From: Candidatus Moraniibacteriota bacterium
GTDB taxonomy: Bacteria > Patescibacteriota > Minisyncoccia > Moranbacterales > UBA1568
Direction of reading: 5' to 3'
NCBI GenBank assembly: GCA_018062205.1
Contig: JAGOSP010000006.1
Span: forward strand, 1-52,282
Length of the DNA: 52,282 bases
The notes beneath the pieces were generated by a model that saw nothing but the letters and a program-made list of their open reading frames with translations, did no database searches and had not been told where the DNA came from. Shown here one piece after another: positions 28,252 to 40,833 of this stretch. Each line of letters opens with the position of its first letter. Position 1 is the first letter of the stretch. The translations under genes were made by a program, and so were the position numbers.

Positions 28252-28281
28252 TTGACATGGCTTGAATTAGCAATCTATAAT
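28252..28281 (+). promoter_or_regulatory. groEL promoter
   Basis: Perfect consensus TTGACA (28252-28257), 18-base spacer and TATAAT (28276-28281). The -10 lies inside the CIRCE spacer, so a bound repressor would block RNA polymerase directly. Confidence 0.92.
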
Positions 28282-31660: not shown

Positions 31661-31695
31661 AAAAAAGCCCCGGTGTCACAAAGCGTGATGGGGGC
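31661..31695 (-). terminator. Intrinsic terminator of the 176-nt RNA unit
   Basis: GCCCC (31667-31671) pairs with GGGGC (31691-31695), extended by TCAC/GTGA. It is followed on the minus strand by six U, seen as A at 31661-31666. Confidence 0.85.
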
Positions 31696-31836
31696 AACGT
31701 ATGAGGGTGAATGAGAAGAAAAAAAAGGTGAGAGGCCGAGAGAAGAGCTTGGAGAGTCTCTCTTGTCCCGACCTCGACCTAGAGGAACCCCATCGTGGTA
31801 GGATTCCATTCTCCAATCACTCTCCTTTGGATTTAC
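31661..31836 (-). ncRNA. Candidate structured non-coding RNA, about 176 nt
   Basis: A minus-strand unit has its own promoter (31843-31870) and terminator (31661-31695). Two strong helices are visible in the RNA: a 16-position stem with one mismatch (31760-31775 with 31732-31747), and a 7-bp stem (31801-31807 with 31784-31790). A protein frame (MESYHDGVPLGRG...) runs into the terminator and looks spurious. Length and hairpin-rich form resemble 6S RNA, but no diagnostic 6S bulge could be confirmed by eye, so the class is open. It lies between DUF1294 and yjbQ, antisense to both. Confidence 0.6.
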
Positions 31837-31842
31837 TATTTC

Positions 31843-31870
31843 ATTATACACCTTTTCGTTCTTTTGTCAA
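31843..31870 (-). promoter_or_regulatory. Consensus promoter, minus strand
   Basis: Read on the minus strand: TTGACA (31870-31865), 16-base spacer, TATAAT (31848-31843). Both hexamers are perfect. Confidence 0.88.
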
Positions 31871-36099: not shown

Positions 36100-36175
36100 G
36101 GGCCCATAGCTCATTTGGTAGAGCGCCTGCTTTGCACGCAGGAGGCGAGCGGTCCGAATCCGCTTGGGTCCACCA
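36100..36175 (+). tRNA. tRNA-Ala (TGC)
   Basis: 76 nt with CCA encoded. Acceptor GGGCCCA pairs with TGGGTCC (one G-T). Anticodon loop TTTGCAC gives TGC. D arm and GGTCCGAATCC T arm are regular. Confidence 0.97.
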
Positions 36176-36286
36176 CCCTTGATTTTTTCCGATAGTTTGG
36201 GTATTATTGTTCTGTTGGCTCGGAAGCCGGTTTTTTGTTGCCGAGTCTTTATAGGGGATATTTTTCGTTTCAAGGGGAAATTTCTT

Positions 36287-36360
36287 GGGCGATTAGCTCA
36301 GCTGGTTAGAGCGCGACACTGATAATGTCGAGGTCCCAAGTTCGAATCTTGGATCGCCCA
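36287..36360 (+). tRNA. tRNA-Ile (GAT)
   Basis: 74 nt, no encoded CCA. Acceptor GGGCGAT pairs with ATCGCCC. Anticodon stem CGACA/TGTCG with loop CTGATAA gives GAT. The T loop TTCGAAT is normal. Confidence 0.96.
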
Positions 36361-36438
36361 CACAGCCACTTCGGCGACTAAAAACCAAGGGTCTGATTTG
36401 AATAGACTCAAGAATGAAGAATCGCACAGACGATGAAT

Positions 36439-36512
36439 AGCGGGGTAGAGCAGTCTGGCAGCTCGCTTGGCTCATAACCAAGAGGTCGGTGGTTCAAATC
36501 CACCCCCCGCAA
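36439..36512 (+). tRNA. Initiator tRNA-Met (CAT)
   Basis: 74 nt, no encoded CCA. Closely follows the bacterial initiator pattern (AGCGGGG... GGTTCAAATCC... CCCCGCA, A73). Position 1 and 72 are A and A, so the end pair is unpaired as in initiators (usually C-A). The anticodon stem is CTTGG/CCAAG, giving TGG/CCA where most bacteria have GGG/CCC at 29-31/39-41. Confidence 0.9.
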
Positions 36513-36526
36513 CAAAGAGAATGAGA

Positions 36527-36600
36527 GGCAGGGTAGCTCAGCCGGTTAGAGCACAGCACTCATAACGCTGAGGTCATGGGTTCGATTCCCATCCCTGCTA
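36527..36600 (+). tRNA. Elongator tRNA-Met or tRNA-Ile2 (CAT)
   Basis: 74 nt, no encoded CCA. Acceptor GGCAGGG pairs with CCCTGCT (G-T at the end). Anticodon loop CTCATAA gives CAT, with one A-C mismatch closing the anticodon stem. Whether it reads AUG or, after lysidine modification, AUA cannot be told from sequence alone. Confidence 0.92.
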
Positions 36601-36690
36601 CATTAATTGACATCTTTCGCTGGCAGAGTCCAATCTCCATACTGCAAACTATGGGGGTTGGATTTTGGAAGAGAGGGGTTCCAAAATGGA

Positions 36691-36767
36691 GGGGGCGTAG
36701 CTCAGCTGGTTAGAGCGCCACACTGTCACTGTGGAGGTCGCGGGTCCGAGTCCCGTCGCTCCCGCCA
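36691..36767 (+). tRNA. tRNA-Asp (GTC)
   Basis: 77 nt with encoded CCA. Acceptor GGGGGCG pairs with CGCTCCC. Anticodon stem CCACA/TGTGG with loop CTGTCAC gives GTC. Its 3' 22 bases plus two more are repeated at 36941. Confidence 0.97.
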
Positions 36768-40308: not shown

Positions 40309-40833
40309 TTATTCTGAATGATGACGTTTCATATCTTGGATTTCTTGGAGGAGCGCTTGAAGTGAATTTTCGATACGATCGATGTGCTTTAGACTTTCCA
40401 GTTGTTCGGCGGCATCTTCTCGGTCATCTTTTTCTATTTCTTCACTTAATTCTTCAACGTCTTCAGAAATTTCTTCAACGTCTTCGCTAATTTCTTTGAC
40501 ATCTCCCTGAATGGTATCGATGTCTTTTGATATTTCTTCAACATCTTCACCAATCCCATCAATATTTTCACTCAATTCTTCAACATCTTCACTGACTTCC
40601 TCAATTTGTTTTGCATGTTGATTGACTGTCATTTGAATAAAGATAGCCAGATAAATAGCCTCAAGCGAAACTAGTGTCGTGAGGATGAGGAGTATTTGGT
40701 CGAGAGAAAATCCAAAGAATGCCAGACAGAAAATAGCGATGAAGAAAATCGTGTGGATTACAAGAGAAGGTGGTGATCCGATATATTGCGAGGTACGGAG
40801 AGCGATCGTTTCGAGTGGGGGAATAGTTTTCAT
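40309..40833 (-). CDS. DUF1003-like membrane protein with long coiled coil
   Basis: The 174-residue protein has two TM helices (about residues 23-65) that resemble DUF1003 (SQYIGSPPSLVIH, then LVSLEAIYLAIFIQMTVNQ). A very regular, acidic coiled coil follows (about 70-160), built from seven-residue units such as EDVEEIS and EDVEELS. The helices would anchor the coiled coil on the inner face of the membrane. The repeat probably grew by duplication. Function is unknown. It is convergent with queH, and the gap holds no clear terminator. Confidence 0.72.
   Translation of the reverse strand: MKTIPPLETIALRTSQYIGSPPSLVIHTIFFIAIFCLAFFGFSLDQILLILTTLVSLEAIYLAIFIQMTVNQHAKQIEEVSEDVEELSENIDGIGEDVEEISKDIDTIQGDVKEISEDVEEISEDVEELSEEIEKDDREDAAEQLESLKHIDRIENSLQALLQEIQDMKRHHSE

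Follow-up and report, generated by a model that had tools for sequence, protein, structure and literature searches.

The DNA analysed here, referred to below as the window, is a single contig (C24) of 52,282 nucleotides from a Candidatus Moraniibacteriota genome (G000), which comprises 966 kb in 24 contigs and is estimated to be 97% complete. An intergenic stretch of 270-320 nt in this window harbours a small RNA unit on the minus strand, flanked on one side by a convergent gene for a small membrane protein of the DUF1294 family (PF06961; 31286-31648, plus strand, with an uncertain start codon) and on the other by a divergent UPF0047 gene (PF01894; 31968-32411, plus strand), with groEL and topA located beyond them. 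The proteins most similar to this UPF0047 in the databases come mostly from Candidatus Moranbacteria/Moraniibacteriota MAGs, which points to a Patescibacteria host of that group. Elsewhere in the window, five clustered tRNA genes (Rfam RF00005) occupy 36100-36764 on the plus strand, and a degenerate 21-bp tandem repeat of about eight copies at 40439-40604, equivalent to a 7-residue protein repeat, sits inside a predicted minus-strand ORF of 174 aa (40309-40833).

The preliminary description of this DNA had proposed an autonomous minus-strand RNA unit at this position, and the observation was confirmed by its promoter, its terminator and its conservation in G002, another species of this genus, whose TopA protein is 91% identical. 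The promoter, TTGACA-16-TATAAT (31870-31843, minus strand), scores 12/12, in line with the claim that both hexamers are perfect, and the -35 element (31865-31870) and the -10 element (31843-31848) are exact matches that recur unchanged in G002. Perfect promoters of this type number two in the window, compared to 0.03 expected in shuffled sequences. The other one, TTGACA-18-TATAAT, lies at 28252-28281 on the plus strand, about 100 nt upstream of groEL. Transcription of the unit likely starts near 31837, giving a predicted transcript of 177 nt (31661-31837, minus strand), give or take a few nucleotides, which begins with AGTAAATCCAAAGGAGAG at 31837 and terminates in GCCCCCATCACGCTTTGTGACACCGGGGCTTTTTT at 31661; the length of about 176 nt given earlier was thus roughly right, with the start now shifted to approximately 31837. 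As had also been described, the unit closes with an intrinsic terminator (31695-31661, minus strand), in which the stem GCCCC..UCAC/GUGA..GGGGC is followed by U6; between the two species the outer part of this stem is identical and the inner part carries one compensatory pair. Since the terminator scan by itself was not significant (two found versus 2.2 expected), the case stands on promoter, terminator and conservation combined.

The initial BLAST match in G002 spanned the promoter and the 5' end only, and led to a full orthologous unit with identical promoter hexamers, spacer length and first 18 nt, followed by a diverged body of 208 nt. The gene order topA, RNA, DUF1294 (convergent) and groEL is common to both genomes, with two insertions specific to G000, namely the UPF0047 gene between topA and the RNA, which is absent from this position in G002, and a metallophosphatase gene between DUF1294 and groEL. 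In neither genome is there a same-strand gene downstream of the promoter before the terminator, and the genes following the terminator are convergent, ruling out a cis-acting leader or riboswitch. The alternative that the transcript encodes a small protein, of 69 aa or shorter, from a Shine-Dalgarno (SD)-led start could draw on an open 69-aa frame at 31851-31642 and on an SD-like motif ahead of GTG, TTG and ATG codons. However, G002 has no start codon near this motif and its frames are unrelated, the indels between the two copies break the frames with lengths not divisible by three, Pfam gives no match for the 69-aa ORF, and the changes observed are of the pair-preserving kind. A conserved small protein, which had been named as the finding that would speak against an RNA, was therefore not encountered, and we consider a coding function very improbable.

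For the minus-strand RNA of G000 the folding energy is -61.6 kcal/mol, with a z-score of -3.1 relative to dinucleotide shuffles. Folding energy does not decide the strand, with values for the minus and plus strands of -61.6 versus -57.2 kcal/mol in G000 and -84.8 versus -86.0 kcal/mol in G002; the strand is set by the orientation of the promoter and the U-tract. Four stem pairs that are G-U in the minus-strand RNA of G000 are Watson-Crick in G002, which supports the minus strand and bears out the earlier argument from wobble pairs. Separate folding of each RNA yielded hairpins A and B, the terminator and a closing helix in both species, with one additional hairpin and helix in G002, giving a predicted branched body of two or more hairpins in each. 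Hairpin A (31784-31807, minus strand) has nine pairs and the loop CCACGA (CAUCGA in G002), with two two-sided and two wobble changes and none broken. Hairpin B (31727-31779, minus strand) corresponds to the long stem of 16 positions in the preliminary description, which resolves into 3 + 10 pairs around a conserved C/UC internal loop with a variable apical stem; it shows four two-sided and two wobble changes, again with none broken.

Covariation among relatives had been set as the test of the structure, and all 31 pairs of hairpins A and B and the terminator are retained in G002 despite 18 differing stem positions, with seven pairs changed on both sides, four changed on one side by way of G-U and none broken. 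This count comes from two distinct sequences and from an alignment that was adjusted manually to match the predicted stems and so leans towards the structure; it was N-padded and the extra G002 segment was excluded. The structure-guided alignment was used because sequence-only MAFFT misregisters hairpin B, and the sequence-only alignment gave a weaker consensus that recovered only part of the structure. Random placement of the 18 changes, repeated 200,000 times, never kept all pairs; with transitions as the only changes allowed, 0.08% of placements did so. For hairpins A and B and the terminator, the comparison of the two copies shows that the predicted fold is kept by selection as its sequence changes.

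The transcript starts with an invariant leader, AGUAAAUCCAAAGGAGAG (31820-31837, minus strand), which is identical in G002 at 18 of 18 positions and includes the SD-like AAAGGAG; its first 11 nt are predicted to be unpaired in both species with a probability above 0.9. Promoter escape requirements could be a partial cause of this conservation. The closing helix P1 (31703-31824, minus strand) is predicted in both RNAs and pairs a 5' side at 31824-31809 with a pyrimidine-rich 3' side at about 31720-31703, within a weakly conserved linker (31696-31726, minus strand; U8, CUUCUC and further pyrimidines; 35% identity). In both predicted folds P1 joins the GGAGAG region to the pyrimidine-rich stretch, while its exact pairing depends on the species and several alternatives have nearly equal energy. 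These features raise the alternative of a translation decoy or switch, in which AAAGGAG, sequestered or exposed by the pyrimidine-rich 3' strand, would let the RNA touch the ribosome or compete for it. The motif is invariant without a conserved start codon after it, and the GGAGAG part is paired with the pyrimidine tract in both folds; set against this, purine-rich SD-like strings are common and the two species do not share the details of P1 pairing. We regard this reading as rather unlikely.

The size and form of the unit had suggested a relative of 6S RNA that binds RNA polymerase. At gathering scores no Rfam family, 6S included, matches at the RNA locus, in agreement with the earlier remark that the known 6S motif is not evident. 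Relaxing the threshold to E values of up to 10 gave nine weak local matches, none of them to 6S, which are at chance level; the best of them, VrrA, reached 20.9 bits compared to a cutoff of 50. The 6S model (RF00013) was detected in none of 49 genomes of the order (G000 and 48 relatives) and in five of 14 control genomes, so that the order may be without 6S or may possess a strongly diverged version. Instead of the long unbranched rod with a central bubble that had been offered as the folding check, both species have the branched fold as their predicted structure. Thus, while the unit resembles 6S RNA in its size, its autonomous transcription and the pairing of its 5' and 3' parts, the missing model match, the branched fold without a central bubble and the occurrence in two genomes only led us to reject a 6S identity.

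A diverged 6S- or Ms1-like RNA, inhibiting transcription by mimicking an open promoter or by occupying the core enzyme, would still fit the size of the transcript, its strong promoter and terminator and its paired 5' and 3' parts, and the role could be vacant in an order where 6S was undetected. The Ms1 RNAs of Actinobacteria offer a precedent, as the versions found in related genera can have dissimilar sequences (PMC9130861). Like Ms1, the present RNA evolves fast and is best tracked by its gene neighbourhood; unlike Ms1, it lies beside other genes in another phylum, and any binding to polymerase is hypothetical. Given that there is no covariance match, that the central bubble is absent from both folds and that the distribution is very narrow, whereas a housekeeping RNA would be expected to be widespread, we judge this reading unlikely. 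Quite doubtful, too, is the broader idea of a new RNA type, bound to the polymerase or the ribosome of these reduced Patescibacteria, that takes the place of the undetected 6S and evolves too fast for present models to recognise the versions in relatives.

Searches of relatives delimited the distribution of the unit. A covariance model run on 28 genomes of the family recovered it in G000 and G002 only, as did a search of the same genomes for the 5' motif with up to two mismatches, and it was not found in the other 26. The remaining covariance-model matches (14.5 bits or less) have no promoter, lie in unrelated contexts and were taken as chance. A DNA search of 54 genomes gave, beyond G002, merely promoter-like or short matches, and no equivalent unit was found downstream of topA or DUF1294 in other relatives. 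G001 (76% complete) yielded no match to topA or DUF1294 either and appears to miss the region in its assembly, making the absence of the RNA from this genome uninformative. In G003, topA and DUF1294 are present about 48 kb apart on one contig, with no such unit beside either. In a further genome, G007, locus L011 (1501-1750) has a strong TTGACA-TATAAT promoter and, between it and a gene, noncoding DNA in which GGTCATAGCC...GGCTATGACC would form a long hairpin that looks perfect; this may be a further leader or RNA unit.

The neighbourhood also raises the reading that the RNA is a convergent antisense regulator of DUF1294, overlapping the 3' end or untranslated tail of its mRNA and affecting stability or termination. 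A gap of 12 nt separates the end of the RNA's terminator from the stop codon of DUF1294, and the convergent arrangement is retained in G002. On the plus strand the terminator hairpin is not followed by a U-tract, and DUF1294 transcripts therefore probably enter the RNA gene. Antisense action, though, needs no selection on the fold or the 5' leader, and many relatives have DUF1294 without the RNA, and we take this explanation to be rather unlikely.

We therefore prefer, with a probability of roughly one half, to read the unit as an orphan, genus-restricted, Hfq-independent regulatory sRNA with a structured body. It would be a stand-alone gene whose range, as far as visible, is part of one Moranbacteria genus. 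Judging from its motifs, a consensus promoter of its own would drive strong transcription, which would stop at its own terminator. The body would be a branched structure made up of hairpins A and B and the closing helix, with the rigid hairpins and the terminator serving as a scaffold for stability, and the unpaired, invariant 5' leader AGUAAAUCCAAAGGAG would be the likely contact surface. Action would most likely be in trans, by base pairing with mRNA, and without Hfq, because searches of the four genus genomes detected their controls but no Hfq. CsrA was likewise not found in these four genomes, with its controls detected, on which ground a CsrA-sequestering sponge was rejected. The four genus genomes were scanned for complementarity to the leader. 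In G000 there was a slight excess of sites, 19 with the unit itself included versus 10 for a reversed-pattern control, and among the sites inspected, at up to three mismatches in 16, no gene was common to G000 and G002; with no conserved pairing target, the trans pairing mechanism stays an inference.

In the features compared, the RNA resembles the trans-acting intergenic sRNAs of bacteria, of the Hfq-independent kind seen in Gram-positive bacteria, with its own sigma-70-type promoter and intrinsic terminator, an unpaired and conserved 5' segment, a structured body and a narrow phylogenetic range. As in this class, there is no coding frame and the stems show compensatory change (seven two-sided changes and 0 of 31 pairs broken, in two sequences aligned by hand). 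To the families described so far it has no sequence or covariance relation, and no sRNA studies of Moranbacteria-like Patescibacteria were found in the literature searched. The small RNA gene at this locus is real, ordinary-looking and previously undescribed, and it belongs to a group that has been little studied. Neither Hfq nor CsrA, both tested in the genus, nor 6S was found in these genomes. That a stand-alone RNA gene there has a consensus promoter, and a fold maintained by compensatory change, suggests the persistence of RNA-based regulation or of some other RNA machine. Together with its sister copy, the unit provides a precise probe for metatranscriptomes.
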